Origin: Hexactinellida sp. DTS-2022
Taxonomy: Eukaryota; Porifera; Hexactinellida
Direction of reading: 5' to 3'
NCBI GenBank assembly: GCA_028753945.1
Contig: JAPNXP010000012.1
Span: 2,108,001-2,172,000 of the forward strand
Length of the DNA: 64,000 bases
The number at the start of each line of letters is the position of its first letter. Positions within the stretch are counted from its first letter, which is position 1. The notes beneath the pieces were generated by a model that made no database searches, was not told the DNA's origin, and worked only from the letters and a program-made list of their open reading frames with translations. Below are positions 2,931 through 64,000 of the stretch, in pieces. Position numbers and translations under genes: made by a program.

Positions 2931-3260
2931 TTGTAAGTCAAATCAAATATTTCAAATATTTGATTTGATTTGAATTATTTGAAACTTCAAATACATATTT
3001 TGATTTGATTTGATTTGAAAATATTTGAATTCTCAAATGATCTGATTTCATTTGAAATACTTTCAAAGCATTTCATTCATTTTCTATTCTTTATTAGATC
3101 ATTTCCAGATCATTTTCAGATCAATTTCACACATGTAAAATCATTTTCAAAATTTTGATACGATTTGATGATAATTCGGAAATAATTTGAAAATTATTAG
3201 AAAATTATTTGAAATTAAATTCATTCCAGATCATTTTTATCTTTTTCAAATCATTTCCAG
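2930..3260. repeat. palindromic AT-rich repeat of atttga/tcaaat words
   Basis: The tract opens with gttgtaagtcaaatcaaat and consists of alternating tttgattt and aaatcaaa words that can fold back on themselves. The same composition and the same gttgtaa-type edge recur at 62047-62196, where both ends are visible. Probably an old MITE. Confidence 0.4.
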
Positions 3261-3674
3261 TTTCACAATTAGAATTGTGGATGTATCCTTGTAAGACATA
3301 ATCGTAATGATTTGAAATTAAGCACCTGTAGTAATTCAATCTTTGTAAATTTAAATCTGAAATCAGAATTTGTATATTCTAATTATATATAATGATCAGA
3401 AATTATCTATTTAATTAGCTCATTTTATAGTTAATGAGTTAACAGCTCCATAAAAATGTAAATAAGAGATTTACTATTTTTTATTACTTAACCTATCGTT
3501 TTATTTACTAACATTTCTTAATCTTAAACTTAAACTTAGTTTGAACTAAGTTAAACCATAGCCTACTATATAAAGGCCATTTCACTGCTTTGGACCAGGG
3601 ATAAGATAAAGGCGGGTTTATTTTTCTAACTGTAACCAATTACCTGATTAATACTATACTTATTATATCAACTA

Positions 3675-3848
3675 CAGTTGAAACCGGATATTTAATACCG
3701 GATATTTTTAACAATCGGGTATATTTAACACATTTTCTTGTAAATAATTAATTATTGTTGTTGTTGTAAAATTGGGTATCTTTAACAATCGGATATTTTT
3801 AACAAATTTTGGTTAAAAGAATGTGTTAAAAATATCCGGTTTCAACTG
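3675..3848. mobile_element. Tc1/mariner-type MITE (cagttgaaaccgg)
   Basis: Inverted ends cagttgaaaccggatattt and aaatatccggtttcaactg are bounded by TA on both sides. A related unit with ends cagtcgaaaccgg lies at 54495-54679. It is non-coding. Confidence 0.7.
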
Positions 3849-4618
3849 TACACATATTAAAGTTTTATATATGGGTCATAGTTGTCTCCCAACATAAATT
3901 CAAGCTCAAGTATTATTATTACATGCAAACTAGATAGTATAATTATGAAAACTAAGCAAATATTTAGAGGAATCTCTCATGATTTTCTTTGGGGCAGGTA
4001 GTAGGAACAATAATACAATATGGTTCTTTGCCTTGTTGCTGTTAAGTAACAACTGGCTACTGTTGTTAAAATTTAAACTAATAAATTGATTTTCCTTCTG
4101 TACTAAGCAATCTATACCTCATCAACGAAGTCTTCGCACTTTTCACTATCGAGTTTTAGGAGGGGGAGTTGCTTGAATCCGATTGAAAACATAATTGTAA
4201 ACACTTTCCAAGGTGTAATAAACACCACATTTAACACGTAATTGGAAGGGCCATTTAAGCAGCCACGATCAAAAAGGCCAATCAAAAGGCAAAAGTTAAA
4301 ATTCGGGTCTTCAATTTCCATTCAATTCCGTATCTTTTCAGTGAGTACTGAACAACGATCGGGGTACAAATCTGAGATTTTAGACAATTTACTTAATAAG
4401 AAAGGCAGCATATCCTCCGATAAAAGCTAGAGGTTGTCTTGTGTATGAATTCAGGAAAAAACTTCAAAAGAGTGGCCACACACATTATGTGTGAAATCAC
4501 ACTTCTCAGGATGACTGCGATAAAGATCTGCTGATAAATTCCATAAACGAATCTCGTTCTTTATGGACATAATCTTTCCTAATTTACAACTTGAGAATAT
4601 TAGACTGTTTAAGTGCCC

Positions 4619-45255: not shown

Positions 45256-45414
45256 CTAATTGAAATTTTCACATGCGGATCGGTGAAGATATATTCTACA
45301 ATGTGGCTATTACTTTTATGAAATACTCTTATTATTCTTAGTTCAATGAAATTATTATTATTTGTAGTGACCTATTATTTATTTATACATTAATTATCCT
45401 GGCTTCGGCCTGTT

Positions 45415-45730
45415 GCATGATATTTTGAGCATTACTACTAGCAAACCATGGATGTGCTATTAGAAATTATACAGTGATATTTTGAGACACTATAAAAGGA
45501 ATTTTTGGCTTATTTTTACTTATGTTATGAATTTAAGTTAAGAACGAGACGCGTGAGATTTTGAGACATTACTACTAGCAAACCATCGATGTGCTGTTAG
45601 AAATTATACAGTGATATTTTGAGACGCTATAAAAGGAATTTTTGGCTTAATTACTTTTATTATGAATTTACAATTTTGAGACGCTAGTAAAGATAAACCA
45701 GAGACAGATTTGCTATTATATATTGTTTTG
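45415..45730. repeat. left subterminal tandem repeats
   Basis: Two and a half units carrying attactactagcaaacca, attatacagtgatattttga and ataaaaggaatttttggctt. The complement recurs three times at 58255-58650 near the other end of the 14.7 kb element. Confidence 0.75.
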
Positions 45731-47353
45731 AGACGCTGGTATATCACAATTTCTGACTTGATTACCTGTTTTGAACGTCTCACTATATTTTATATTCTAT
45801 CTGCAATATGTATCCCTTTTAAATCAAGTTTAATTCCTGATAATTATAGCAAGTTTTACCAATAGTCCAAATTCAATGTATATCTGATTTGACTAGTTTT
45901 CTTAATCTAATAATTACCCAATTCAGCATATGGTTATAATACTAACAATTGCAAAGACACAACTTTAATTAATTACAATCAAAAACAACTATTACAAACA
46001 AACAGAATAAATATACTAAATTAATTTAAACGAAACATAATAATACATACATAGACTAAATAAAAAACTCAACATATAAAAAATTAATATAAAAACCCCA
46101 AAAGTACCCCCCATCTTGCTCGATTGCCTCCGTCTCCTGTCCTCCCTCCTCTCCCCTTCAAACCGCCTCAAGTAAAATAATAAATACAGGAGTAACATTT
46201 AAATTAGGTAGGTTTGTTAGCTAATAGTTATAGTTATTAACTTTTGATATCCAACAAACGAATATAATACACAGTGTCAATAACGTCAATTTCCAGCACT
46301 ACCTTATCTGATTTAATCCAGCCGCTTACAACCAAAAAAAGGCTTAATCATGCATTTTTATATAGAATTTTCAGACTTTGTAGGTTTGTTCTTTCATGCA
46401 AATAGTGTATTTTTGGATATAGTGCCAACTCCAAATTCCAATGTGTCGGCCACAATTGACCACTTAAGGGACACATTTTGAAGGTGTTAGAACTCACCTA
46501 ACTTCCTCAAATCAAGTCCAATCCAATTTTTATGCCGATATTCGTAATCAACACTAAATTTGGCGTCATTTAAGTGGTCACCTGAGACAATTTTTCCTTG
46601 ACGACGCAGGAATGTTGTAGGAATTTAACAACATTCCATTCTCAAATTTTATTCTAACATTCTAACACTATCGAGTGACCCCTTGTTCGACTCCACTCAG
46701 CTTCCTGAAGCTAGTTAGACACATGCGAACCCTCTCAAAAGTCATTGGTGCTATTGTACTGTTCTGACATATTGGTTCCGGCCGGTACCAATTTGTCATA
46801 AATTGTTCATTTAACAAATTAGTTCCGGGCTAAATTTAGAGTGTTAATCATTTCTATGGGTTTGTCTATTCCATAGCAAATTCGTTCCGGATTAATTTAT
46901 ACCAGTAATCACACTTAGACGGTTCCTTATGCAACACTTAAGTAACTTTTACGTAATCACCACCCTTGCTTAGGTACATTATAATTAAAAAGCATGTACC
47001 CTCGGCCTCTGGGAAGTAGTAAATATGTGTATTATCCTACGTACTAATTGAATTAACCTTATAAATAGAGATTTTGTCTCAGGATTTCGAATTAGATGTT
47101 ATCCAATCTCGTGATTATTATTACAAGGTATGTATCAGATCCGGTGGAAGCAGTTATAGTGGTCAGGTCATGACATGACCGGCCTAACTAGTGACGTAAG
47201 AGTGGTTGAGCTATTGGCCTGACCGCTTCTGCCGGCTATGTGTATGATATTTACTGGATTCATGTTAAACATAGTCGTCTTATTATACTAACTTTGTTCT
47301 TAAACAGTAAGTATGAAAACGAATTCCGCATTTACAAATTTCTAATATGAATA

Positions 47354-47510
47354 CAGTAAACTCTCGTTATAACGATGTGCTCGTGACCTGTAAATTCCTT
47401 CGTTATATCCAGATATTCGTTATAAGCGGAAAATAATTAATGCATTTAGTGCTCCGTTAATAAGCGGGTATTTCGTTACATCCGAGTTCGTTATAACGCG
47501 AGTTCACCTG
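47354..47510. mobile_element. Tc1/mariner-type MITE (cagtaaactctcgttataac)
   Basis: Inverted ends cagtaaactctcgttataac and gttataacgcgagttcacctg are flanked by TA on both sides. Pogo/mariner-like ends. 157 bp and non-coding. Confidence 0.75.
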
Positions 47511-47969
47511 TATTTATTGTTGCTGTTACAAAATAGCAAAAAGTTGATAAATTCGAAATGCACATAGAGGCCAGCTTCCAACGGGTTTAATAGGTAAACA
47601 AGGATGATGATTTCCAAATTAGAATCGGAATATTTCTGAAATGATATTTATTGTTGTCTTTGACACTGTGGTAAGAAATTACTTATACAAAGCTCAGCTC
47701 TAGTAGAGTTCAGTTTTTCAGTATGTGTATTCAGGCACAGAAAGGTCAGTTTTTCCCAAGCTTTGAAATTGACCTTTAGAAAGTAAGCCTGGGCTTTTAG
47801 TATGGGAAAAATCTGAACTCTACAAAGCTCAGCTCTTATATAAGCATTCTCTTGTGGTAAATAGGAAAAAAGTTGTCAAGTATTATACTTCACCTAAAGA
47901 CTAGCCTTCGACAAATAAACTGGTTAATACATTTGCTGAATAGAACTTGTTTTCTGGCAGGTTTGTTCA

Positions 47970-48506
47970 AAGAGGCGGCGCCAGGATTTTCAGGTAGGGT
48001 GGCCAGGGGGGGGGGCACACTGTACAACCAGTAATGTGCTCCGGTACTAGTAACGGAGTAACGGTAAGGTAAGGGGAAAAGTAACGGTAACGGGCGTCGC
48101 GGAGTAACGGTAACGGACATCCGTTACTTTTAACTAGTTACCGTTATCTTTAATCAGTTACTCTTACCATTACATTACCGTAACACAGTAACCGTTACTA
48201 CGTTAAACTTATTCCACTACCATTACGACGTTATTTTACATCAGTTACCGTTACATTAAGGTTACTGTACTGACAAAGGTAAACGGGTAAACTTAACAAA
48301 AGTAACGGAGTAACGGTAACGGAAGAAATAAAGTAACGGTAACGGGTGAAATAAAGTAACGGTAACAGAACAAATAAAGTAACGGTAACGGAGTAAACGG
48401 AAGATTTAGTAACGGAGCACATCACTGTGTACAACATTGTCATTCTAGGGGGGGGCCAGCCTCAAAAGAGGGGGGGGGGGCATGGCCCCCCCTGGCGCCG
48501 CCACTG
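47970..48506. mobile_element. hAT-type MITE, GGCGGCGCC family, gtaacgg repeats
   Basis: Ends aagaggcggcgccagg and cctggcgccgccactg are flanked by imperfect duplications tttgttca and tttgttgt. The interior has dozens of gtaacggtaacgg words in both orientations, and G-runs. The minus-strand frames at 47890-48443 reflect this simple repeat and are not genes. Confidence 0.7.
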
Positions 48507-49488
48507 TTTGTTGTTAAGTTGAAACAACTAATAATGAGCCATATTTTGATGAATAAACGAGAGCGCGTAGCGGGTGAGTGATCTTACAATTGAGATTTTG
48601 AATACTTATTCAATATTCTAACTGTTGTTAGGTCAATTAAACCCTTCGTTTCCTGGGGTAAAAGGTACAAATAGAAAAATCCCATTTCAATTCAATTGAA
48701 ATTGAATTTAGTTTAAGTTTGACATTCACATACCTGGTGCAACGAAGGGATACGTATATACGTATATATCGTAAAACAGAAAACTATTAACAAATGAAGT
48801 ATTGAAACCTGGGATTTAGAAAGAATTCCCGCGATTCTAACCCCTATTTAGATAAAAATATATTTGTATTTGCCTCTATTTTATAAACCTGGTTTGAAGT
48901 GTTACTTAAGTGTTGCATAAGGAACCGTCTAAGTGTGATTACTGGTATAAATTAATCCGGAACGAATTTGCTATGGAATAGACAAACCCATAGAAATGAT
49001 TAACACCCTAAATTTAGCACGGAACTAATTTGTTAAATGTTCAATTTATGACAAATTGGTATCGGCCGGAACCATTTTGCAGCCGGAACAAAAATGTCAG
49101 AACAGTACAATAGCACCAAATGACTTTTGAGAGGGTCCGCATGTGTCTAAATAGCTTCAGGAAGCTGAGTGGAGTCGAACAAGGGGTGAGTCAATAGTGT
49201 TAGAATAAAATTTGAGAATGGAATGTTGTTAAATTCCTACATTATTCCTGCGTCGTCAAGGAAAAATTGTCTCAGGTGATCACTTAAATGACGCCAAATT
49301 TAGCGTTGATTACGAATATCGGCATAAAAATTGGATTGGACTTGATTTGAGGAAGTTAGATGTGTTCTAACACCTTCAAAATGTGTCCCTTAAGTGGTCA
49401 ATTGTGGCCGACACATTGGAATTTGGAGTTGGCACTATATCCAATGAAAGAACAAACCTACAAAGTCTGAAAATTCTATATAAAAATG

Positions 49489-52079
49489 GATCTGCACATT
49501 TTGATCAAATTTCTAGGTAGAATTTTGATCAAAATGTCTTAATAGAACTTTGATCAAATATGCAAAATCAGAATTTGATCAAAGTTCGATTATTGCTATT
49601 GATGTAGAATTTTGATCAAATTCACAAAATCAGAATTTGATCAGAGTTCTACTATTGCTATTGATGTAGAACTTTGATCAAATTCACAAAATCAGCTTTT
49701 GATCAGAGTTCTACTATTGGTATTTATGTAGAACTTTGATCAAATTCACAAAATCATTGTTGAAACAAACTTCTACTATTTGTTAGATAATGAAATAAAG
49801 AATAACATTGAACAAATGAGAAGCATACTTAAAAACAGCGTAATAAGGAGTTAACACAATGAAGAGTTACTAATAAACCTACATAAGCATTTGAATAAAG
49901 AATGATAGTTAACTCTCATTGAAATATCTGTAATTTACTCGTAATGCAACAGCGACATGTAGGACATCTGTCTTCTCGATTAAAGTTTAAAGCACAAGTT
50001 CCGCATACTTGTGCATGTCCACATGGCAAAAAAACATATGTCGAAACTCTCTCCATCAAACAGATTATACAAGGATTACAAACTATTGATTCTTCACTAG
50101 TTATAACTCCATCATCATCTTCATCAGAATCTGAGAATTCAGTGTAGTTTAATTGTACATTACCAATCGTTTTAGACACTTCATTGATGTACTCGATAGG
50201 CGTGTACCCTCCATTTTCCAGCTTTTCTTTACATCTATTTCGTCTCTTTTCAGTTTCAATATCCTTTTTCCGTCACTCTCCGATTGGTAAGCCATTCATA
50301 TATCTTTGATATTCTTGATCATATTTTATCACATTCTTTTCAAGGTACTCAATGAAGGACCATATATTTGGCCTTTTCACCCGTACCATAGCCTTTAATT
50401 CTCGATGGTAAACTTCACAACAGTTATTGGTTTTCTGAACTGATTGATAAATTGAAAAATCATTCCTTTCTATCCATTCCCTTCTGATATAAGCGATAAG
50501 TTTATTAAGAAGAAAGTCTTCTCTTGGTGATAAATCTTTAGGTACAGTGTTAACCAGTATTTGAAATGTTTGAAAAATTTCCTCTTCAGGTAACATTGAC
50601 AATGATATGACAAATTTTATCCACTCATTCAAGCTTGTATTTTTACTATATGTTGAGGAAAGTTGTAACTTTTTCACTTTTTTCCAAAAAGCCCTTGAAT
50701 AATGGAACAGACACCCTGATACTGTGATCGAGGAAATATTTTACGAAATGTATTTCTTGAAGCCTTTTCATAATCACCCACTGCTAATTCTGGTCGGAAA
50801 TCTGGAATCATTTCCACAATCTTCTGTAGTACAGCTGTATATAGATTCTCATTTTTAGACGACATTAAAATGTGAATAGCAGGAAAAGCATGGTGTTGTT
50901 CTTGGATAAAGATAGTAAATAACTGATAAAACAGTTTGGGAACCACGTAAAAAGTTCCATCAAAACTAACACTCTTTGCTTCTTTTAACTTCTCAAGCAT
51001 TAGATCAGAGGCAAATATTGCTGCAGCACCTTCATGTATGATGACCATTGAACGAAAGTAATTTGAAAAGCGAGTTCGCATTAAGATATCTTCAAATTCT
51101 TGATGATGTTTCGGGTTTCCTGGTAATTCAAGTCGTCTTCTTTTGAACATTGTGTTACGTACCTGTCTGTATGATACCATTGCACCAGCTTCGTCTGAAG
51201 CCGTGACTTGGTCAAATACTTGTCTAAGGCTATCTGTCGAATTCTCAGCAGCACGCTTTATCTTATTATTTAGGGCGATTAATTTAGATTTGTATGCTTC
51301 TTCTGTATGACAGTGATTTTGAGTAAGATAGAAAAGATTGCATTCATTATTTATTCTCCCAAACCCACGACATTCTATTCCATGCGCTCTCCATAGAGTA
51401 CATCTCAAATATATACATTTATCACTTGAAGAAGAACGTGTATATAAATATCTTTGGCACGAATAATTATGAGTTCCCAATTTTTTGCCTTCAGCAATAC
51501 TATACTCCATTTACGTATCTCTGGATAGCTACGAGTTGAAAATGATTTAATCTTCAATAAACAATTTCTATTATTTACTGAAGATAATACGTAATAATAG
51601 GCATTCTACCCCTTGATTTAAACATGATATTTGGTTTGGGATTTGAATAGGAATGATGTGTTTAATCAATATATGTGTTAATGGACACCTTGAGTATTGT
51701 ACTCAATTAAAAATTATTACTTATGATGGCTTGCCATGAATGTGTTTATTCAATACAAGTCTAAAGTACAAGAAAACAGCTGTAACAATAGTAGAAGTTT
51801 GTTTCAACAATGATTTTGTGAATTTGATCAAAGTTCTACATAAATACCAATAGTAGAACTCTGATCAAAAGCTGATTTTGTGAATTTGATCAAAGTTCTA
51901 CATCAATAGCAATAGTAGAACTCTGATCAAATTCTGATTTTGTGAATTTGATCAAAATTCTACATCAATAGCAATAATCGAACTTTGATCAAATTCTGAT
52001 TTTGCATATTTGATCAAAGTTCTATTAAGACATTTTGATCAAAATTCTACCTAGAAATTTGGTCAAAATGTGCAGATTC
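49489..52079 (-). mobile_element. MULE transposon with 300-bp inverted repeats
   Basis: Arms of about 300 bases (49489-49790 and 51795-52079), filled with tttgatcaaa words, are inverted copies of each other. The 9-bp duplication ataaaaatg (49480-49488 and 52080-52088) is perfect, as usual for Mutator-like elements. The single gene between the arms is the transposase-RING frame. It is inserted in the right arm of the fold-back element. Confidence 0.9.
49916..51510 (-). pseudogene. MULE transposase with FLYWCH and RING domains
   Basis: Minus strand from an ATG at 51510, about 530 codons. First a FLYWCH-type zinc finger (YSCQRYLY, CIYLRCTLW, HGIECRG, NHCH; about residues 17-70). Then the MULE DDE core: SFDGTFYVVP (first D, about residue 181), VGDYEKASRNTFRKIFP (second D) and a CLFHYSRAFWKK block, which is readable only after a one-base frame change near 50713. 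The frame then runs to a TGA at 50273-50275 and continues in the same frame into an acidic stretch. It ends in a complete C3HC4 RING: CIIC, then CGH at the third ligand pair, CGTC and CPTC (50070-49950). The RING would recruit a ubiquitin E2. Two lesions suggest a recently dead copy. Confidence 0.8.
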
Positions 52080-52112
52080 ATAAAAATGCATGATTAATGT
52101 TGTAAGCGGCTG

Positions 52113-52890
52113 GACTAATTACGATTAACAAAATATTAGAAACAAAATTTTTTGTTGATAAAAAAACTATTTATTTTTAATGTTTATGTTGCAGTTTATG
52201 GAAAGTCCTGATCTGCACGCGTGCACACCATAAGAAAGTCCTGGTGTGCACGCGGGTACACCAGGCACGTCCATAAACTGTAACATTAGAACCATTTTAT
52301 TTCTCCTGAATTTCAATATTATATACGAGCAGAATGTCTAGAAAGAGATATACATATATTTATAAGATAATTAAAAGGTAAACTATTTTTTTCAATCAGT
52401 TTTGATTGTATTGACCAATCATTTGGGGGCCTCCTCCTTTTCCCCACACATCCTCTCCATTCATACAGTGGAAACCGCACATCTATATCAATTCAATCGG
52501 CTCCCATTTTTTTATTAAATTAGCCTTCGTATGTGTGTAACGACATAACAAAATATGTATCGCATTGATACGCCCAGTTAATGCGGTTCCCAGTGTACAA
52601 AGAAATCTGTCAAAGGAAACTACATTAAGTTACACTAAATTACACAAACAATGAAATTAAAGAGTGTTACAGTGAGAACTCCAGTCGGCTATAAATCAGT
52701 TTATAACGAAGTTCAATGGTCCGGACATCCCTATACGTATTTGACTACACTATAGTAAAATAAATCGATATAATGAATTCTCTTTTTGGCGAAGATATTT
52801 ATTTTGGACATAATCTGAAGTTGTTCCATAAGTCTTGTAATTCGTGTTCATCATTGATACGACAGGTTGATAGTGATCGAAGTAGTTCTA
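52113..52890. other. no gene recognised
   Basis: Sequence between the fold-back element and the OTU frame. At 52196-52280 the words ccataaactg and gtgcacgcg/cgcgtgcac occur in inverted and direct copies, a possible tiny MITE. Nothing else seen. Confidence 0.3.
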
Positions 52891-53397
52891 GATATAAAGG
52901 ATGGCTGTAGGATTATCTGTGGCTCTGTGTAAACTCCAACGCACCTCGTGAATTATTGACACTTTCGTTCTGTAAACGTTAATGGCAACATAGACATCGG
53001 CATCAAGAATAGCAGAATCAGCATAAATGTCCAAATCTGTTCTCCAAATGGATTCACGATTCATAAGTACATGTGTGGTAATGTATTTACACTGTGTCAT
53101 TCCTTTGGTTTTAAAATACAATCCTAGTTTCCTAGTTCCTTCACTGGCGATAAAGCGAGAGATGAAGGAGCGAAGATGTAAGTGGCTGTTTTCACTCCCA
53201 CTAATTAATTTAGATTTGCATCGAAATAGACAATTACCATCTCCTTTGATATGTTCCGCTTCCCAAGGTTCAAAACCGCTAAGTGACTTCCCAACGCTAA
53301 TATATGGTTGTCTGCAAACTGATTCAAATAATATCCCCAACATATTACATTTACTACGCTGCCAATTTTCATCTATCACAGTGATCCTTGGGTCCAT
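52888..53397 (-). CDS. OTU-like cysteine protease of the integrase transposon
   Basis: The 169-residue minus-strand frame holds an OTU domain: the catalytic box IKGDGNCLFRCKSKLISGS (D and C near residues 53-56), then HLHLRSFISRFIA, and WRTDLDIYADSAILDADVYV followed by AINVYR. OTU proteases remove ubiquitin. A catalytic His is expected near the end (IIHEVRWSLHRATDN). The domain usually follows or is fused to the integrase in some DNA transposons. Here it lies downstream of the integrase exons on the same strand. Whether it is a separate gene or the C-terminus of the same protein cannot be settled; a separate start at 53397 is possible. Confidence 0.7.
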   Translation of the reverse strand: MDPRITVIDENWQRSKCNMLGILFESVCRQPYISVGKSLSGFEPWEAEHIKGDGNCLFRCKSKLISGSENSHLHLRSFISRFIASEGTRKLGLYFKTKGMTQCKYITTHVLMNRESIWRTDLDIYADSAILDADVYVAINVYRTKVSIIHEVRWSLHRATDNPTAILYI

Positions 53398-53583
53398 CGG
53401 TGTGTCATGGATTACGAAGCGGAACTACATCGTGAAATGATTCTCATAGCATTGTTTAGATACTGCATTCCCTAAAATATTAATGTTTACAATTTAATTA
53501 ATATAAGAATGATTTTAATGTCATAACCTGCTTTGATATACTGAACAAACATACTAATTTTAATTGAATTGGGTATTGTTAGA

Positions 53584-53919
53584 TTATTTTAACTTACCAC
53601 GAAATACATTTGTGTGTGTGTGTGTATAGCACGTTGGGTATCTGTATAGCTGGGGTAGAGATCTGTTGTCCATCCAAGTATAATCTCCATAATATCTCTC
53701 TTCAACAATAAATGGGTAAAATGATAATTTGTAGTTATCGTATGAATTATTGTTAACATACAACTTCCTCTTCTTTTCCACCATCCAAATACTCGAATAA
53801 CTTCGTGTGGGAGTGTAGTTGTTCGCTTTGTAAAACAAGTGGCGCAGCTCTTCATGTAGAAGAGTCATGAAGGTCTGCCCACGTATATTCTGCATTAGGA
53901 TTTCTACAAATGACAACAC
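53584..53919 (-). CDS. unrecognised frame between integrase and OTU
   Basis: A 111-codon open frame (FVEILMQNIRGQTFMTLLHE, then ELRHLFYKANNYTPTRSY and a YPFIVEERYYGDYTW segment). It lies on the same strand as the OTU and integrase parts and so may be an exon of the same transposon gene. No family recognised. The gtgtgt run at 53611-53623 gives the repeated TH at its end. Confidence 0.35.
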   Translation of the reverse strand: MLSFVEILMQNIRGQTFMTLLHEELRHLFYKANNYTPTRSYSSIWMVEKKRKLYVNNNSYDNYKLSFYPFIVEERYYGDYTWMDNRSLPQLYRYPTCYTHTHTNVFRGKLK

Positions 53920-54494
53920 ATTGTAAGAATAATATTACTGGATGTTACAAATATTCGGATTGACGTCAATTGAAGGTGTCAAGCTAAAATAACAATGAGT
54001 GTCAATAAAGATTACACAATTAATTAGACAGTATAGGTGAGAACGGAACCTTACTTTTAAGTTATTAAGGTGTTGAAATATAGATTCCGTAGAAAATCCA
54101 AAAAGATTCTGGTACATCTAAAAATGGAATATTTTACTATTAACACTTTTTACCTTTAAAATAACAACTCAATCACAATGAATTTACCTGTGAGGTGTTG
54201 ATTCCTATGCTAGTAGCGAGGCTTACTTAATTCTTAGTATTCTTGGGAATAGAGGATCTTTCAAAGTAGGGTCTTGTGATATGGATTGGAATCTTTTTGT
54301 CCTTCTTCGTTCCTAAGTCTGTTTTAGAAATTGTAACATGGCTTTCTGTTGCTTTCGACACCGTGTAAGGGCCAAGATGTTTCGTTTGCTTTTTGTTTTT
54401 ATTTTGGGAATGTTGGTATAGATCTTATCATCCTTCTAGCTTCTTTAGAGATGCACTAATTACAGAGAGAATAATTATGAAAATAATTCTAATA

Positions 54495-54679
54495 CAGTCG
54501 AAACCGGTTTATTCTAACTCGGGTTATTCTAACTTATCCGTTTATTCTAACTATTAATAATGTAATCTTTTGTAAGAAATTCCAACTATACTGTATTTTT
54601 CATCGGTTTTTTCTAACTATCGGTTTTTTCTTACTAATTTTATCTGAAAAGAAATGATTAGAAAAACCGGTTTGAACTG
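54495..54679. mobile_element. Tc1/mariner-type MITE (cagtcgaaaccgg)
   Basis: Ends cagtcgaaaccggttta and aaaaaccggtttgaactg are flanked by TA (54493-54494 and 54680-54681). Internal ttattctaac words are repeated. Same family as 3675-3848. Confidence 0.75.
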
Positions 54680-55015
54680 TATAAAGAATGAATCGAACAT
54701 TAGTAACAAGATAGACTGAGGGTAATGTATGAATTAAATATCATCATCAGTTCAACTAACCGATTAGTGTTTTAATTAATTAACTAATTAACTTTCTTAT
54801 CATATTGTATCTTCTGCTTGAGTTGTTAAAATTGATGCAGTCCATAGCTGATTGCTGTGTAGAAGTTCGAGATTCATCAATGTTGCTAACTGCTACGAGG
54901 GAACTATCAGGAGGTGGGTAAAATATGTCGATCATCCCTCCGAAATCATCTAGTGGTTCTGTGACTTCAGAGAAAATCGATTCTTCCATATCAAAGTCTT
55001 CATCATCGTTGGTAT

Positions 55016-55141
55016 CAGAGGTGGCGCGAGGGTGGGGCCTGTGCCCACCTGAATTTAAGTGTGCCCCACCTCATTAATGTAAGTGCCCCACCTGTGACGT
55101 AATTGTGCCCCACCAGTGGCGGCTGGCTAGCGCCGCCACTG
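55016..55141. mobile_element. hAT-type MITE, GGCGGCGCC family (126 bp)
   Basis: Ends cagaggtggcgcgag and ctagcgccgccactg are flanked by a perfect 8-bp duplication gttggtat (55008-55015 and 55142-55149). It contains repeated tgccccacct words, as in 12190-12563. It sits inside an integrase exon; the frame on each side is in register once the unit and one duplication copy are left out. Confidence 0.85.
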
Positions 55142-55476
55142 GTTGGTATGCAGGTTGTTAATGGTGGACAAGAGATCTTGATGCCGGGACTCTCTTCCCC
55201 ACATAACCTTGAATGGAGTTTGTCCGAAGGATCTTTTCTTGCAGGAGTTCATTGCAAGCACAGCCTGTTTCAGCAGTTTAGACCAATGATCCCATATCTG
55301 ACTCTCCATTTTAATCAGTTTTCTATATGGATAATACGTAAATGGGTCTAAATTTTATATTACAAAATACTAACTGTTTCAGAATCTTGTTGTGCGCTTC
55401 GACTAAGTCGTGCCATCGGGTGGTAAGCACGAGTGCTACGATTGTCTATACCCAATTTCTGGTTGAATTCCTTAAA

Positions 55477-56809
55477 TCTATACTATTAAAACACAAGGCT
55501 GGGTCATAGCATTCTATACATAAGGCAATGGTACGCACTCAAATTTCTGGACCAGGGATTAACTAGTATAGTCAACTAAGTAGATGCAACTCAATTATTC
55601 TTCGAAATAACAAATCCAGGGTGCTTCTACTTATGTAATTGTTTTTTATAAAGGTAGTCATATACAAGACGCATATTTTTGAGATGCCACTTGGGCGAAA
55701 TGACGTCACTGTATTGTCTAATAGTCCAAATATGCCAAAACCAAATATGCCAAAACCAATTTTCTGAGAATTGTGATTATTGTAATATACATTCAAACGG
55801 TTATACACATTTTGTGAAAAATTGGTTGTTAATGGAGCATCGAAATGTATTATCTTTGAATAGGAAGTTGAGGACGGGCTATCAATTGGATCCATTAACT
55901 AAGCTGTAACTATATTTCTTCTCGAGATATGACCTCAAGCATTGAAATCACATTTCCATAGCAACAGAGGAATGTGTCAACATTCCATAATTGATTCTGA
56001 GATATTTTGTGTAAAATGACTCCTAGATGGGTTAGTCACATCGATTTGTTTTAAAAAGCGAAATTGAACATTTTACATGCGTTCAAAGTTTTGGCATATT
56101 TGGACTATTAGACAATACAGTGACGTCATTTCGCCCAAGTGGCATCTCAAAAATATGCGTCTTGTATATGACTACCTTTATAAAAAACAATTACATAAGT
56201 AGAAGCACCCTGGATTAGTTATTTCGAAGAATAATTGAGTTGCATCTATTTAGTTGACTATACTAGTTAATCCCTGGTCCAGAAATTTGAGTGCGTACCA
56301 TTGCCTTATGTATAGAATGCTATGGCTGGGTGTATATATTTGTGTGTATATTTGTTTGTATGTTACGAGTTGATTGTAGAAAGAGACGGTTTCCAAATGA
56401 GATTTTTGGCATATAGGGGTAACTTTTGGCACCCGCCAACAAGTTGAGGTTTCCACTCAAAATTTCTCACACCTTGACAAGTTATGACGTCATTGTCACA
56501 TTTCGGGAATCCTTAAAATTCACTTAATCGCACATAATTCGCGCCCTCTATGAGATAAAAATCTGAAAATTTAATAGAACATGCAGATTAATGATGCGGA
56601 CATGGTGGTCACACCAGATCGCCACTATGCTGACTCATTATCGCATGATGACGTAATCATTAAAATTTCACATTGTTAAATTTGACTATTTAGGCCTATT
56701 TACGCTTTATAATCAATATTACGAGTATATAAACCACTCACTAACCGCGAAGCGGTTGGTGTGTGGTTGTGTTCTGCCGCGAAGCGACCTAGCAAGCGAA
56801 GCGCGCTAG
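55477..56809 (+). mobile_element. non-autonomous Helitron, copy 2
   Basis: Starts tctatactattaaaacaca, ends aagcgcgctag, and lies between host A (55476) and T (56810). The 3' hairpin gcgacctagcaagcgaagcgc is intact. It has landed a few bases downstream of a splice acceptor of the integrase gene. A fold-back element (55505-56324) is nested near its 5' end, leaving about 0.5 kb of Helitron. Confidence 0.85.
55505..56324. mobile_element. fold-back element with about 240-bp arms
   Basis: The arms start catagcattctatacataag and end cttatgtatagaatgctatg and are near-perfect inverted copies (55505-55742 and 56089-56324). A 7-bp (possibly 8-bp) duplication gctgggt lies at 55498-55504 and 56325-56331. 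The centre has ccatagcaacagaggaatgt. No coding frame of its own. Confidence 0.85.
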
Positions 56810-58140
56810 TATCTGTTAAATAGAATAAAGAAATACAAATAATAATACATACTATAATGTTAGTATCTAAATTAGATAACACAATGTCGGAAGAATCTAA
56901 CAAACAGTACATTATACTAACACTGCTTGTGAACTCTTTGCCCTGGTCGTGCTGGATAATATCAGGTAATCCCATATCGAGATAGATGTCCTTCAGATTG
57001 CAAATAACTTCTTGTGAAGTCTTAGTCTTGAGAGGGCGTACTGCAACATATTTGCTCAGGTAGCATACAGTGACTAGAATGTGTTTATAGCCGTCTTCAC
57101 TCTCAGGTAGGTCGCATATAAGGTCCATTCCTATATGTATCCACGTTTTAGAAGGAGGTGGTATTAGTTGGAGTTTCTTTTGCGGTTGAGGTGGCAAGGC
57201 CTGCTGTCATCTGACATATATGGTAAATCTTTACCTTTATAATATAATAAAGCCATTAATATTGTATAATTTAATATGTACTACTATGTTACAAAGCTAA
57301 GTGAATAGTTTCTAATCATTATGAATTTGCGATTATTTCCCACTGAGATACATCCACATTTCCATATGTGCCACTTGTCCCACAAGTAGTACGTGACATA
57401 GACACAGATGCCACTTTATGGTTATTGGATAAACATTACTTAAAATCATAATGTTATGATATTTAGAATTATATTACAAGATAAAGTCATTTAAGAGTAG
57501 TTTAATTCAGTAGGCTTTATTACGCAAACGAGAAGTATATTGTATCAGGAATAAAAATTCAGTCGTTTAGAATTTTCAAATGAAACGAGATAGGTAGGAA
57601 AATTTTATAAAGTATGAACAAAATACAGAAGTGGTCCGGTCAAAGATGGACTATCCTTTATAATAATGTCTTTGTAAATGGCAAGTGGTTTGGTATTGAC
57701 ATAACCACGGGCTACCTAGGAAAGTATACCGGATAATTAAACTCAGATATACTTTAACGTCTTGGGAAACGCGTTCCCATGTGCATCTTTTGCTGAACTG
57801 AATGTAAGGTCGTATTTATTCCGGGATGACCGACTTGGTCATGGAACATCTCATAGATGCTGTCCAACTCAGACTGCAATGGAACTGCCAAATCTGTCTC
57901 TGTGCCTTCCACTTTTACTCTCTAAAGGAAGAATTCAATTAAACCATGGGATATTTAAAAATAGTCTAGGGGAATAAGGAAGTCAATATTACCTTTGAAA
58001 AGTCTGTTGGTATCTCCAATAAAATAGGAAGACAATCTTTTTTATAGTTCCATTTTGTCTGACGTGAAGCTTGAGATGCTTCAGGATATTTTTCTTCGAA
58101 AATAAAGTCAATGATTTCGTCATATTCATTTGGATTCATT

Positions 58141-58660
58141 TCAAAATAAGAAAGGATTTGATTGTATATTTGTTGTATATGAATAAGACAATTAATGCAT
58201 TTATTAAGTTTCTTATATAGTTAATTTGATAATAGTATAGGGTTTATATATATTATGATCTCAAAATCATAGTACTGTATTCTTGAATTCATAATAAAAA
58301 GTAAAATAATCCAAAAATTCCTTTTATAGTGTCTCAAAATATCACTGTATAATTTCTAATAGCACATCCATGGTTTGCTAGTAGTAATGTCTCAAAATCT
58401 CACGCGTCTCATTCTTAAATTAAATTCATAATATAAAGTAAAAAAAGCCAAAAATTCCTTTTATGGCGTCTCGAAATAATACTGTATAATTTCTAATAGC
58501 ACATCCATGGTTTGCTAGTAGTAATGTTTCAAAATCTCACGCGTCTCATTCTTAAATTAAATTCATAATAAAAAGTAAATAAGCCCAAAATTTATTTATA
58601 GTGTCTCAAAATATCACTGTATAAATTATAATAGCACATCCATGGTTTGCTAGTAGTAAT
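58141..58660. repeat. right subterminal tandem repeats
   Basis: From about 58255, three units of about 130 bases carry aaaattccttttat, tcactgtataatttctaata and tggtttgctagtagtaat, the complement of 45415-45730. They lie upstream of the integrase start and may hold its promoter. Confidence 0.7.
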
Positions 58661-60052
58661 TCAGGGTTGGGTTCTGAAATTGCGTATTTGCATTTGTATC
58701 TGTATTTGAATATAATAGTTAGGTGTATTTGCATTTGTATTTGTATTAGAAGTCGAAAATATGTATTCATATCTGTATTTGTATTTGGCTTCTGATATTT
58801 TACACATAAATTTATAACACGAAAGATTGCATGATTAACAAAGGAAATGACGAATCTCAAATCTCAGTTATAGCGTTGTTGTATGACAGCTTTACTACCA
58901 TGACAGACTTACTACCTCTATTACTAGTACCATGGATGTTCTCTATCCATGACAGATTTACTACCTTACATGACAGAATTACTACCCTTTGATCTTGACT
59001 TGAGTATTACTATGCACTTTTAATGGTTTCTTTCTTTCTTTCTTTCTTCTACTTGACTAAATACAAACAGCATGTATTCAATATAGGAAGTATTTACTTG
59101 TATCTTTAAAAAAAATTATTTTTGAATTTGACTTGCTCAATCATCTATATAATTGACATCTCCACATCCGCCTTCCCCGTATTCATTATTTACTAGGTTA
59201 ATTAATATGTAAAGCATTGTGAACGGTATAGATAATTATTCTAACATCGGAGATACGACCTTTTAATGGATTTAACAATACATAACCTATTGGGAATCTG
59301 AGATTATATTAGCTGTCAAAAACCGTATCGCTCTACAGCCTCTACTCAATGATCATTGCATTGCTGAAGCCGTCTGTGTAAAAAAAAGTTGTAATACGAC
59401 AATGTATCCTGTCAATAACTTCACTAAGTTGATAGCCTGAGGCTGACATTTTAAAATTTCGTCTCGCGAATTTTGTTGAGTTCAATAAATCGCTCGGCAA
59501 AATCACATGGGAAAGAAATTCACAAGCTTTGAATATTCAGAGATATTCATTATTGTAATGTAATTTCTTGAATCAAGACTATAATTTGTGTACTTTCTCA
59601 AATCGATGAGTAGAATAAATAATATAAATGAATTACCATTTCCTATATTGAATACATGCTGTTTGTATTTAGTCAAGTAGAAGAAAGAAAGAAAGAAACC
59701 ATTAAAAGTGCATAGTAATAGTCAAGTCAAGATCAAAGGGTAGTAATTATGTCATGGATAGAGAACATCCATGGTACTAGTAATAGAGGTAGTAAGTCTG
59801 TCATGGTAGTAAAACTGTCATACAACAGCACTACTAATGAAAAAACTTAGTGGGTTCTGGAAGTCGACGAAAAAATCAAATAATTGAATTTTTGTTTAAT
59901 TTGGTAATTGCTAAATCGTATTTGTATTTGTATTTGTATTCGTAATTGTATTTGAATCTATTAATTTAGGCGTAATTGTATTTGTATTTGGTTTCTGCTC
60001 AGTGTATTTGCATTTGTATTTGATCAAGAAAAATTTATTTGAACCCAACCCT
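58661..60052. mobile_element. inverted-repeat unit (cagggttgggttc) with nested fold-back
   Basis: Ends tcagggttgggttc and gaacccaacccta, with tagtagta and aagtagta flanks (7 of 8 bases). Subterminal tgtatttgtatttg words lie at both ends. It interrupts the right subterminal repeats of the 14.7 kb element. A second fold-back unit (about 58875-59829, arms of about 200 bases starting gttgttgtatgacag) is nested inside; its arms include a tttctttctttcttt run and its complement. Confidence 0.7.
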
Positions 60053-60099
60053 AAGTAGTATGTCTCAAAATCTCACGCGTCTCAAAATATCATGCAACA

Positions 60100-60240
60100 T
60101 GCCTTTTGTTGGGATCGAATAACTATAAATACATTCATTAGAAATATAATTTTTGTAATTTCCAATATTATGAAATCTCACTAATAAATCTCATAATTGT
60201 GATGAGAAATTTCTTATTGTATCACGTCATATGAGACCTG
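60100..60240. other. host spacer between two integrase elements
   Basis: AT-rich; nothing recognised. Confidence 0.4.
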
Positions 60241-60429
60241 TTGCGTAGGATTCTGACCCGCGTAGGATTCTGACCCGCAAGTCGCAATTTCATTTTTGTG
60301 TAATCTGTGTTCTATCCCTAGTATCTCGGTTACTTATATAAAAGCTACTTTCTAATATTTTACTTACCCTAATTTTATTATTGTTTCTAGATTTTCAACT
60401 TCAAATTTGACATTGACAATTATTATGGA

Positions 60430-60712
60430 TGCGAGCGAGTATCAAACAGTTCTTGGATAACTCCAGAGTCCAGACGCAAGAGATTCCTAGCGAAATCAAG
60501 AATGATCGCTATAAGAAGAAGAATTTTATCAGGAAGTGCAAGGGATTTGTGTTCAAGACCAAAAACTGATGAAGGTAATAATTTCTCAAATTATTTTCAG
60601 ATGGTATTTCTAATCAATATTTTATTTAGAGCCTGAGGAAGAAGAACGGAACCTTAAAATACCTCGAGATTCCAATTGACACAGAAATCAATGACATTAT
60701 TGGCTGGTATTG
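60430..60712 (+). pseudogene. integrase N-terminal fragment, core deleted
   Basis: Reads KQFLDNSRVQTQEIPSEIKN and KKKNFIRKCKGFVFKTKN, the helical N-terminal domain, up to a donor near 60575. After an acceptor (attttatttag) it reads EIPIDTEINDIIGWY, the segment just before the H2C2 histidines in the copy at 57.9 kb. Homology stops at about 60712. The H2C2 finger and the DDE core would have to lie in the 230 bases before 60946, where they are absent. Confidence 0.6.
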
Positions 60713-60945
60713 AAGTTAATGTGAACGTAAACAAACTGAACGTGCGTCAATTTGAGATGGTTTATTCAGTCCATTCGTGAACCTTACATTCTCTTTATAA
60801 TAATATTTATTGTTCAAAACTATCCTTAACCTTTTTAAGTTAATTTTATTAAAATAGCTTAAATTTCCAATATTATTCCAAACGCTTAAAATTCAATGCT
60901 TACAATAATTATTAAGCCTTGAATTTGATTTGTCCGTTGTTTTAG

Positions 60946-63557
60946 AAAAATTAACTATATGATGTGCAATGGGTACAAAGAATGGGTAGATAAATTACAG
61001 CCAGCAGTACTAGCAGCCAATACTCAGACTAAACGATCCACAGGCTACACACCATTTTATCTCATGTTCGGTAGAGATTTCAATTCCTCTAATCTACTCA
61101 ATCTTATCACCTCTCCAAATAACCCCGGCTTCAAATCACCAACAATTATTGAAACAGAAACAGAATTAGCCCACCCGAATATTACTCCAATGGACATTGA
61201 TGAAATTACAGATCCTTACGAACTCCCAAATAACGATAACGAATGGGCAGAAACAATTGCTGCAAGTCGTAAGAAGGATAAGAAAAATGCCAGACAAAAG
61301 ATCAAAGAAGAGCAAAAAGTCCAAAAGAAAACCTACGACCGAAAAGTCAAACGCAATAGGTGTGTTGATACGTCTTACTATGTTTCACTTTGCAATTGTA
61401 ATTCTACTAAAAATCATTTTTTAGAATTCCTTACATATTTCAAATGTATTGTGTTTATTGTTGTTTCCGAGATAACATCTTACGAAACATAATGAGTCGG
61501 TGATACTATCATGTGATGTCTAATAATAGTAACCTTAGGTATTTGAATGTGTTATTGTTATTGCGAAAGTTCTGGTTCAATTACGCAACTTCCGAACTTC
61601 TTATTGTGCAATTCATTTGAGTGTACTGCTTTAGGACAGAATTTGAAGAAGGAGATCAGCTTATCGTACACAATATCAAGAAAGCAAGGAGACTCCCAGG
61701 AACAAAAGAAGCAAAGAAATACTTAGGCCCATATTCAGTAGAGAAAGTAACACCAAGCCACCTCTTAGCACGAAAAGATCCCAACAGCACAAAAGTAACA
61801 AAATTACCTCTCCATCTCTCTCGAAAATATTTCCCTCGCAAACAACCGGTAAGTTAACTTTTGTTGATTGTTTACCCCCCAATGACTCATTCCTATTATA
61901 TTTTAGGTTACACCAACGAAGAATCAAACACCCGACATCACATCAACCGGATTTTCTATTTCGCATGCAATTGGTAAGTATTTTTGATTGTTTACTGCTA
62001 TATTAAAAATGCGTTATTAACAAGCACGATTATGAATCAGACACTGGCAGGGTTGTAAATGAATCATCTTAGATTTCAAATCATTTCAAATCATTTCAAA
62101 TCAAATCAAATCAAATCAAATAATTAGCCACTTAAAATTATCTTAAATCAAATCAAATATTTGAAATATTTGATTTGATTTACAACACTGGTTACTCATG
62201 ATATTTCTACATACTATTCGAACTAGTTTAATCGTATAATTTTAAACACACTTTATTTGATTTCATTTAGAACCATTTGAGGAGACCCTGACTTTAGGAG
62301 CAACTGAAGAAATCTATGAAATCCCTGAACAACGAGGAACAGAAGTAAGTATTGATGCTACACTAACTACCATAAAACCTCAAGTATTAACAGCCCTTAA
62401 CAACCGTACCTATCTAACCCCACTACATAAAACGCTCGCCACCAAAGCTGAATCACTAATATCACTAAAATCACTATACGATTACCATCCATCAACTGAA
62501 CTAGATTTTACGACCAAAGAATCGATCTCCATCGCTACCGCTAATTGGTATAACGAATATCGCAATAGCCATCCCTGTAACGATCCGATACAAATCAGAA
62601 AAGACTATGATTATCCACTCGCAGTTCTGTTACCTGTTGTGATTCAGCTAATAACACCTAAGCATCAACTAGAAGAGATAATTACCATCGAGACCAATCC
62701 ATCACCATCTAACCATCTGAATATCATCTCACAGATTGCATCACTACCAATAGCATCCTATGTGGGGGGGAGAGCACAATGACATCATGCTATCCAATAC
62801 CTGCTCAGTGGACAACATCCTAGCCATCCTAAGTTATAAGAAAGCAAACATACTCGATGCATTGAACTTAATCGGAACCTCACCAACTGACACCAAATTC
62901 TACCATCTGTTCAAACTGGCTGCTAGTAATAAATTCGAAGAACTGCGAGATTATATTGCCAAACAACTCGGGCTGGATATTCAATATGATTCAACTGGTT
63001 TGATGCAATCATACAATTTTTTTGGATCAGAAGGCAACATCATTCAATTCCTAAGAGCAGAAGACCTATGCAACGACAGATACATTACCAACTTCAAATG
63101 CCACCACTGCACCAACATTTTTAACACCACCACTATGATAGGAAATATTGGCAGCGTATTCACTAATCTGGAGTCTTCTATAAACCGAAAACTAATTCCA
63201 ACTAAATGTAAGTCCTGTGGATCAAGTAATGCAATCTGTGAGAGGTTATCTGGGCGTTTTCAACCCATTCCTATACTGCTAACAATTGAAATTGGACACA
63301 TTCTAACACAGAGCAAACAAGTATTAATATCTGACATCGACCAACAATTTACCATCAGTCATCAACAACAGACATTACATTATAAACTAGCTGGCTTTTC
63401 CATCTTCGTTAGCAACCACTTTTACTCTATCCTATGTGACAACGAACAATTTTATAAATATGACGGCATGAGAAACCCTACTGTCGAACTATGGGACTGT
63501 AACCAATTCATCGGATCACTCAATACTGTATTCTACCTCTTGCTCTCTTCTGACTAA
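60946..63557 (+). CDS. integrase C-terminus fused to USP-like peptidase
   Basis: Four exons join in phase: 60946-61359, 61635-61848, 61907-61973 and 62271-63557, each with consensus gt and ag sites. The first has the integrase C-terminal block (WVDKLQPAVLAAN, STGYTPFYLMFGRDF) and a lysine-rich coil. The second has a GPY/F domain (EEGDQLIVHNI, KYLGPYSVEK). The last has a linker and a peptidase-like domain: Cys box NTCSVDNILAIL (62793-62828), two CxxC pairs (CHHC 63100, CKSC 63209) like the finger of USP/C19 enzymes, and a His box HFYSILCDNEQFYKYDG (63418-63468). The frame shifts by one base at a run of seven Gs (62764-62770). The integrase core is missing upstream, so the gene cannot encode a full enzyme. 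Confidence 0.65.
62047..62196. mobile_element. MITE of tcaaat words in an intron
   Basis: Ends cagggttgtaaatgaatca and tttgatttacaacactg are inverted relatives, and the interior is made of aaatcatttc and aaatcaaatc repeats. It lies in the intron between 61973 and 62271. Same composition as 2930-3260. Confidence 0.6.
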
Positions 63558-63745
63558 TTCTTCTTCTTATTCAATCGAAAGCGCTCAAAGGCAAGGTACA
63601 TCGACCTTGTGGGGACCTCTGCTAGAGGCTATACAGGCAACGCAATCCCTATCATGGTGAGCCCAGATAATGGTAACGCGACCTGCAACGGCACATCCCC
63701 AGTGGCGACTGACAGTTTAACACTTCCAACACTCAACCAACCCAA
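63558..63745. other. GC-richer sequence with repeated acaggcaacgcaa
   Basis: Non-coding. The word acaggcaacgcaa occurs at 63633-63645 and again at 63758-63770 within the hammerhead-like motif. The segment is clearly less AT-rich than its surroundings. Confidence 0.4.
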
Positions 63746-63798
63746 GTGAATTGCGTGACAGGCAACGCAACTGACGAGTCCGGGCCGGGACGAAACAC
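63746..63798 (+). ncRNA. hammerhead-ribozyme-like motif, probably degenerate
   Basis: The conserved core ctgacgag (63771-63778) and cgaaac (63791-63796) flank stem II, made of gtcc and ggac around a 6-base loop. Stem I is closed: ttgcgt (63751-63756) pairs with acgcaa (63765-63770). Stem III is three pairs, gtg (63746-63748) with cac (63796-63798). The two bases before stem I, where a cleavable hammerhead has U then H, are AA. One core base therefore departs from consensus and the copy is probably inactive. Such ribozymes are known in Penelope-like elements and retrozymes of animals. Confidence 0.5.
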
Positions 63799-64000
63799 AA
63801 AATGGAACCAGAAGTAAGTGAGTTTCTAGACTTATTTATTGACTATAACATTAAAGTATATTCTATAACTGTCTAGTATAACGGCTACTTAGAATAGGTC
63901 CCCACATGACTTCCCATATTATTATTATCCTGTATATAGCTGCCATCTGTCATAATGGCCATTTTTGAACAGTCCCTAGGGTAGCCGTTATTAACAGGTT
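63799..64000. other. no gene; short inverted repeat
   Basis: A donor-like agaa|gtaagtgag at about 63812 follows the ribozyme-like motif. The words tataacggctac (63877-63888) and gtagccgttatta (63981-63993) are inverted, about 90 bases apart, and could mark the end of a small element or a hairpin. Confidence 0.35.

Follow-up and report, generated by a model that had tools for sequence, protein, structure and literature searches.

We analysed a 64,000-nucleotide stretch of the genome of Hexactinellida sp. DTS-2022 (C4:2108001-2172000, hereafter the window; the genome comprises 112.4 Mb in 18 contigs). The transposons of the window are of the cut-and-paste kind and fall into two groups, Ginger1-like elements and a Mutator-like element (MULE); the copies present are decayed. 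Each was found with a C-terminal domain of the ubiquitin system: an OTU protease in one Ginger1-like element, a domain predicted to fold as a USP/C19 protease in the other, and a RING on the MULE transposase. The window copies are damaged in all three cases, and relatives with open frames occur elsewhere in the genome. The initial annotation of this DNA had proposed that the transposases bear three modules, one of ligase type and two of deubiquitinase type, and this was borne out by the domains and folds found and by the USP catalytic residues kept in 18 aligned rows. Jointly with the mechanism proposed below, we consider it fairly probable that a C-terminal ubiquitin-editing domain is a regular part of these transposases. 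The modules recur beyond what a chance occurrence would explain: the genome gave at least 150 matches to the RING tail, at least 150 to OTU and at least 148 to the USP-like domain, some loci being split over several matches.

A Ginger1-like element with an OTU protease

The following features were assigned to the first Ginger1-like element.

45261..58691 (ends approximate), minus strand: Ginger1-like OTU element with insertions, collinear with L075
46313..52114, no strand: insertion of about 5.8 kb in the OTU element, including the MULE
55505..56324, no strand: inverted-repeat insertion within the OTU element, 237-bp arms, 99% complementary
56919..57179, minus strand: DDE integrase core exon, 94% amino acid (aa) identity to L075
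52888..53424, minus strand: OTU protease frame with the Cys box GDGNC, cut short by a stop ahead of the His motif (NYFDHYQPV)

Collinearity with the genomic relative L075 runs from window position 58328 down to 52114 and resumes from 46313 down to 45261. A terminal repeat motif at 58301, 58439 and 58576 on the plus strand recurs inverted at 45491 and 45628 on the minus strand, which provides the element with terminal inverted repeats (TIRs). An integrase followed on the same strand by an OTU frame had been reported here, and our results agree: both belong to one Ginger1-like element interrupted by the MULE. The proximity of the modules is explained in part by this insertion of one MULE inside one Ginger element. 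The target-site duplication (TSD) of Ginger1 is 4 bp long.

The integrase core (rve) at 56700-57206 (minus strand) was detected with E 6.6e-6 and 26.8 bits, under the cut-off of 32.6, and the window OTU domain (PF02338) reached 24.2 bits against a cut-off of 23.3. The OTU domain of L075 scored 42.7 bits, covered model positions 2-128 of 128 and keeps the His motif; its frames follow the order N-terminal part, DDE, GPY/F-like region (recognised by eye) and OTU. Many copies in the genome have an OTU frame of 227 aa that shares about 80% identity with the one in the window. A further integrase group, represented by L005 (C14) and L008 (C1), also has GPY/F-like and OTU frames, with a DDE core 37-42% identical to that of L078, a USP-bearing relative described below.

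Adjoining the terminal repeats of the OTU element, window positions 58864-59840 contain another inverted-repeat insertion (arms of 59-102 bp, 92-100% complementary).

A Ginger1-like element with a USP-like domain

The second Ginger1-like element consists of the following features.

60233..64000, plus strand: Ginger1-like USP element, extending beyond the window, about 95% identical to L074
60704..60705, plus strand: deletion point; L074 has about 1.0 kb more at this place (3041-4058), including the DDE core exon
60929..61492, plus strand: integrase portion that follows the DDE core; assignment by eye and position, without a Pfam match
61647..62006, plus strand: GPY/F-like exon region, motif recognised by eye in a neighbouring DNA frame
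62261..62782, plus strand: linker exon; residues 31-131 of L074 were modelled as a bundle of five helices
62754..63557, plus strand: USP/C19-fold domain with C17, CxxC at 116 and 152, H222 and D237

The initial annotation had described an integrase gene running in phase into a USP-like peptidase domain. The USP fold was recovered in the structure prediction, but the parts are not in phase: integrase and protease lie in separate frames, the DDE exon has been lost, and a frameshift divides 62261-62782 from 62754-63557. The corresponding part of L074 is one 432-aa frame, and the rve domain of L074 passed its cut-off (34.6 bits versus 32.6). L078 encodes a 922-aa single frame with H2C2 (PF17921, E 5.3e-15), rve (PF00665, E 4.4e-12) and the USP-like domain. 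Inspection by eye showed LGPY stretches in frames of the L075 and L078 types, and LGAY in the database protein P0018.

The assignment to USP/C19 was decided by fold comparison, since the sequence profiles failed. The predicted structure of the 62754-63557 domain has the USP fold (predicted local distance difference test score, pLDDT, 88), and all 50 VIA-align rows were USP-type, at 9-15% identity. No Pfam family passed its cut-off on this domain. The curated cut-off of Pfam UCH was not reached among 11 members, one of which gave a match (16.9 bits versus 23.9), and hmmsearch of a profile against PDB chains returned nothing relevant for C19 (8 matches, best E 0.17). Profile searches had been suggested for all three modules; they placed RING and OTU above the cut-off and left C19/UCH below it, with fold comparison supporting C19. 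According to its predicted structure, the C-terminal domain folds as a USP/C19 protease.

The N-T-C box, the two CxxC pairs and the His were invariant over the 18 aligned USP rows, and the Asp was nearly so. This alignment, the first version of which had 19 rows, omitted P0008, P0012, P0013, P0015, P0016 and P0018, which were partial, disrupted or not needed.

Other observations concern the surroundings of this domain. A conserved linker (L074:5583-6077) lies ahead of it; the VIA rows did not extend beyond the USP part. In a viral library, named giant-virus USPs led the matches; these were not used as evidence. Downstream of the USP frame, L074:7335-7660 contains tandem repeats of about 21 bp, whose number apparently varies between copies. 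Degenerate GTAACGG-type repeats occur at window positions 48001-48430, and similar sequence is found at L074:12-407.

OTU and USP alternate in one slot of related integrases

To related DDE exons we assigned OTU or USP neighbours on the same strand and no more than 6 kb downstream. The L075 DDE exon as query gave 980 candidates, and among the 150 matches listed, 88 had OTU, 15 had USP and none had both. All 150 listed OTU rows plus 53 from another match list entered the L075-type counts; 115 of the 148 USP rows entered the neighbour counts, lower fragments being left out. The neighbour changed with identity to L075. At 70% identity or more, the listed matches comprised 75 with OTU, 36 with neither and none with USP; in the 60-69% band, 13 had OTU, 5 USP and 8 neither; below 60%, 10 had USP, 3 neither and none OTU. 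With the L078 DDE exon as query, 150 rows were listed; 33 of the first 52 had USP within 5 kb downstream, and all 11 L078-type integrase frames of at least 790 aa were followed by a USP match. At the level of sequence matches, these counts show a single slot of related Ginger integrases to be filled by either OTU or USP.

A tree of 12 DDE cores required at least two module changes, on its starred branches, and a single clade of USP-bearing integrases was rejected (p-AU, the P value of the approximately unbiased test, 0.002). As the USP carriers do not form one clade, the modules have probably been swapped. The placement of the OTU-bearing L003 beside USP rows in the L075/L074 half of the tree was not strongly supported (86/67). 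The contexts of the modules had been called unrelated or swapped; alternation of OTU and USP in one slot fits the second word, but the first does not apply to the two integrases, which are of the same Ginger1-like kind.

A RING tail on the MULE transposase

The MULE and its target site were resolved as follows.

49489..52079, minus strand: MULE (Phantom-like) DNA transposon, 2.6 kb, with an inverted-repeat pair
49480..49488, no strand: left target-site duplication, ATAAAAATG
52080..52088, no strand: right target-site duplication, ATAAAAATG
50674..51510, minus strand: transposase N-terminal and MULE (DDE) part, first frame, MULE domain at residues 181-265 of 278
50273..50740, minus strand: transposase continuation in another frame after a frameshift
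49916..50272, minus strand: C-terminal frame with the RING at residues 66-112, about 49937-50077

The TIR arms are about 295 bp long, 99% complementary and contain 62-bp repeated units, and the TSD is a perfect 9 bp, ATAAAAATG on both sides, within the 8-11 bp of MULEs. Pfam detected the MULE domain in the first frame (E 6.5e-11) and a RING in the last (PF13920, E 4.2e-8, 33.3 bits versus a cut-off of 27). The zinc ligands of this RING are in C3HC4 or a related order, and its frame terminates in ...KLQIFQ-stop. The description of a single MULE frame ending in a C3HC4 RING was right about both domains but not about the window copy, which consists of three frames because the reading frame shifts near 50.7 kb and meets a stop codon at 50273-50275. 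L076, 98.2% identical to the window MULE over 2665 aligned columns, does encode a single 530-aa frame with MULE (PF10551, 50.6 bits, cut-off 27.6) and RING (30.9 bits). The N-terminal FLYWCH of the window MULE was a weak match only (PF04500, E 0.7, 10.5 bits, cut-off 23.6).

The 118-aa RING tail as query gave 576 candidates, of which 150 matches were listed. We used 101 of 127 MULE core rows, the other 26 having no open frame of at least 520 aa. Of the 39 MULE cores lying in stop-free open frames of this length, 35 could be assigned a RING-type tail: 21 were found with the window tail, 13 with the tail of L086, and one (C7:1921319, L090) was read directly. The remaining four (C4:3838324, C18:1565425, C7:1874993 and C3:2502418) were neither matched nor read; within the clade of the window MULE, no RING-less relative was found among the 39 frames, these four being unseen. 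Seven tails were read directly (L084-L090): the RING is canonical in L084 and L090 and a His variant in L085, L086, L087 and L089, while the tail of L088 is out of frame. MULE-domain frames of 474-485 aa, from other clades, also occur in the genome. Full-length relatives had been called for as a check on the three modules; open-frame ones include the 530-aa MULE frame of L076 and the L075 and L078 frames.

Database relatives of the MULE protein have a RING annotation in 9 of 14 cases; it is absent in P0028, P0030, P0032, P0037 and P0038 (364-520 aa). The best PDB matches of the window RING tail were the RINGs of XIAP, BIRC3 and BIRC2, aligned close to their C-termini. For the tail of L086, which has His at ligand places, MDM4/MDM2 came first. 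IAP and MDM2 RINGs act as dimers via a short C-terminal tail.

Constraint on the modules

The ratio of nonsynonymous to synonymous substitution rates (dN/dS) was estimated for the RING tail, the MULE core and USP, excluding near-identical pairs and pairs with infinite dS. Pairs from different subfamilies gave 0.15-0.18 in the RING tail and 0.12-0.16 in the MULE core, where the estimate was finite, and 0.12-0.32 in USP. As judged from these ratios, purifying selection between subfamilies was shown for RING and USP. For these two modules, this answers a proposed check of selection.

Several observations weigh against a regular ubiquitin-editing domain on these transposases. Close USP pairs are less constrained, with ratios of 0.34-0.50 among damaged copies and 0.93 between the window and L074, and all dN/dS values are rough because dS is near saturation in diverged pairs (proportion of synonymous differences, pS, about 0.65 to 0.88; several dS infinite). 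Among the USP rows omitted from the alignment, P0016 has Phe in place of the Cys and P0013 is without the Cys box. Three of the 35 RING tails, all among the 13 located with the L086 tail, are damaged or partial in the DNA: C12:3496856 is out of frame, C1:17319045 has a stop and C18:5108547 is partial. Neither OTU nor USP was found within 6 kb downstream in 47 of the 150 listed L075-type DDE matches, a count that is an upper bound because the OTU and USP match lists are incomplete and not all USP rows were entered. The integrase tree was built from 139 columns, and its halves overlap in part of these only. For the USP element, neither TIRs nor TSDs could be defined, and in L074 no inverted pair was found that spans it.

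Possible roles and origins of the domains

In the mechanism that we consider most likely, the Ginger deubiquitinase (DUB) would act on ubiquitin attached to its own transposase, or to chromatin and repair proteins at the site of transposition, and by removing it would prolong the lifetime of the transposition complex. The MULE RING, being similar to the dimer class, might be switched on by dimerisation of the transposase at the ends of the element; the active RING would then ubiquitinate either its own transposase or a host protein bound to it. A bolder version of this idea is that Ginger integrases need a C-terminal deubiquitinase whose fold is immaterial, that OTU and USP are exchanged as a cassette, that MULE transposases need a dimer-type RING ligase active only once two transposases have met at the element ends, and that ubiquitin editing is thereby indispensable to cut-and-paste transposition in this sponge lineage. 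We put this forward tentatively, as possible but doubtful. The analysis showed the domains and folds, the conserved catalytic residues, the copy numbers, purifying selection on RING and USP, and the alternation of OTU with USP; that the modules are active enzymes, what they act on and how they benefit the element are inferred.

The modules may instead act mainly outside the transposition reaction, countering ubiquitin-based silencing or degradation by the host, for which any DUB class would suffice. We give this reading a substantial chance, somewhat short of even. It would account for the substitution of OTU and USP for each other in the same slot, and Helitron DUBs have been suggested to prevent degradation of transposition proteins or to overcome inheritance limits (PMC9741609). 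Taken alone, however, it leaves unexplained why the MULE has a ligase instead of a DUB, and a regular role of the modules in transposition is preferred.

How the modules were acquired is a separate matter. Repeated capture from the host had been proposed, and each module may have been taken independently from host genes, several times, as the presence of two DUB folds plus a RING among the element groups of the window would suggest. The carriers L083 (OTU behind an unrecognised N-terminal part) and L077 (an rve frame with USP) point the same way. Against this, identities of 25-34% link the USP domains of one integrase group to those of another, although Pfam UCH misses them (29-30% for L078 versus L074 and the window), and the OTU domains of different groups are likewise 25-34% identical. 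Because of this resemblance, exchange between elements is preferred over many host captures, and judged from the alignments it is at least as likely as fresh host capture to explain the OTU/USP pattern. Repeated capture was not demonstrated, and we regard independent origins as rather unlikely.

It is improbable that RING, OTU and USP serve as binding folds for DNA, chromatin or a partner, rather than as catalysts. The replacement of canonical RING residues by His in the four His-variant MULE tails would agree with such a role. The USP catalytic residues, however, are kept as described above, the OTU domains of L075 and L005 retain both the Cys box and the C-terminal His motif, and the His-variant RING of L086 matches the RINGs of MDM4/MDM2.

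That the integrase genes belong to long terminal repeat (LTR) retrotransposons or host genes rather than to Ginger DNA transposons is very improbable: the rve core is common to all of these and a search for TIRs in the USP element gave none, but the inverted ends of the OTU element, the near-identical dispersed copies (dozens for OTU, several for USP) and the L078 frame, which begins at the integrase N-terminus and has no reverse transcriptase by Pfam, ruled out a Gypsy LTR element or a host gene as the leading interpretation.

A conserved block and other carriers

Behind the USP frame, a further feature is common to the OTU and USP Gingers.

63575..63706, plus strand: conserved stretch of about 135 nt that follows the DUB stop codon in OTU as well as USP Gingers

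Copies were found at L075:3858-3991, L074:6902-7037 and L006:1974-2105, beginning roughly 17-20 bp past the DUB stop. The block is about 90% identical across OTU- and USP-carrying Gingers, whereas the DDE cores of L074 and L075 are 58% identical in protein. A structured RNA was not supported: Rfam gave no match in the block and none over the window (one chance-level hit lay outside the block, E 0.37), the folding energy was not clearly below that of shuffles for any of 5 sequences (z 1.43 to -0.49), and covariation was slight (2 of 37 pairs). As a coding exon, one of six frames has the lowest dN/dS-like ratio (0.32) and is weakly protein-like; stops and 1-bp indels weaken this reading.

Other frames in the genome carry the same domains. 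L077 (C1:752000-756200) has a 972-aa frame with a divergent rve (23.1 bits, below the cut-off), Cys-rich stretches and a USP-like domain, and a second 972-aa frame of this kind lies at C17:124992. We take one Cys-rich stretch of L077 to resemble a CXC motif. In L083 (C1:884500-888500), a frame no shorter than 919 aa combines a C-terminal OTU with an N-terminal part without a Pfam match; further OTU matches lie in frames of about 1251-1260 aa. Ulp1 (PF02902) gave 17 matches in the genome.

The nearest named proteins were those of the glass sponge Oopsacas minuta (P0012, P0027 and P0032 at 56-58% identity, P0018 at 52%). Three homology searches, which returned 24, 14 and 3 proteins, gave no named match besides Oopsacas; the method requires shared exact words and does not imply absence elsewhere. 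The main-text portions consulted of the Oopsacas and Aphrocallistes genome papers contain no occurrence of MULE, Ginger, OTU or ubiquitin.

Comparison with known systems

Ginger1 elements of Hydra, Aplysia and aphid have a Gypsy-type integrase with H2C2, DDE and GPY/F, together with introns and TIRs (PMC2836005). Their Table 1 lists a C-terminal OTU, Ulp1, or Ulp1 plus PHD, and one family with none, and a role of ubiquitin in Ginger1 transposition was suggested there in 2010 (PMC2836005). H2C2, DDE and a C-terminal protease, which is OTU in several families, are common to the published and the sponge elements. OTU on a Ginger integrase is a published combination, and the initial observation of it is less novel for that (PMC2836005). 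The sponge differs from published Ginger1 in that one group has a USP (C19-fold) domain in the place of the protease, and in that OTU and USP alternate between relatives. We found no report of USP Gingers, of OTU/USP alternation or of a RING-tailed MULE lineage in the open-licence literature, Repbase reports aside.

Ubiquitin enzymes on transposases have been in print since 2010, with a role suggested only (PMC2836005). One genome with related integrases bearing OTU or USP, and with a retained ligase tail on a MULE, offers matched pairs for a test. Such pairs could show whether the target of ubiquitin removal or addition is the transposase, host repair factors or a silencing pathway.

Phantom MULEs (Tm1 and insect relatives) resemble the sponge element in the MULE transposase, the TSD of about 9 bp and the long, foldback-like TIRs with repeats (PMC3169594, PMC6446971). 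The sponge element differs in its in-frame C-terminal RING and in its weak FLYWCH match (E 0.7). Earlier examples of a RING beside a MULE are a separate ORF in an aphid Ghost element and, in a single element of Phytophthora, a ring finger of C3HC4 type (PMC6446971).

Helitrons likewise join their transposon protein to a DUB drawn from interchangeable classes, OTU and/or VTD, the latter studied biochemically (PMC9741609). Unlike the sponge Gingers, they are rolling-circle elements and have VTD instead of USP (PMC9741609). One Trichomonas transposase_11 protein with Peptidase C19 has been cited (PMC2836005); it has C19 on a transposase, as here, but the transposase family is different.

The RINGs of IAP, MDM2/MDM4 and MEX3C in the PDB have a similar zinc-ligand pattern and a short C-terminal tail, and here such a RING is fused to a MULE transposase. 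The USP family in the PDB, including USPL1, has in common with the sponge domain the fold, the Cys box, the two CxxC pairs and the His box, with the sponge domain lying below the Pfam UCH cut-off.

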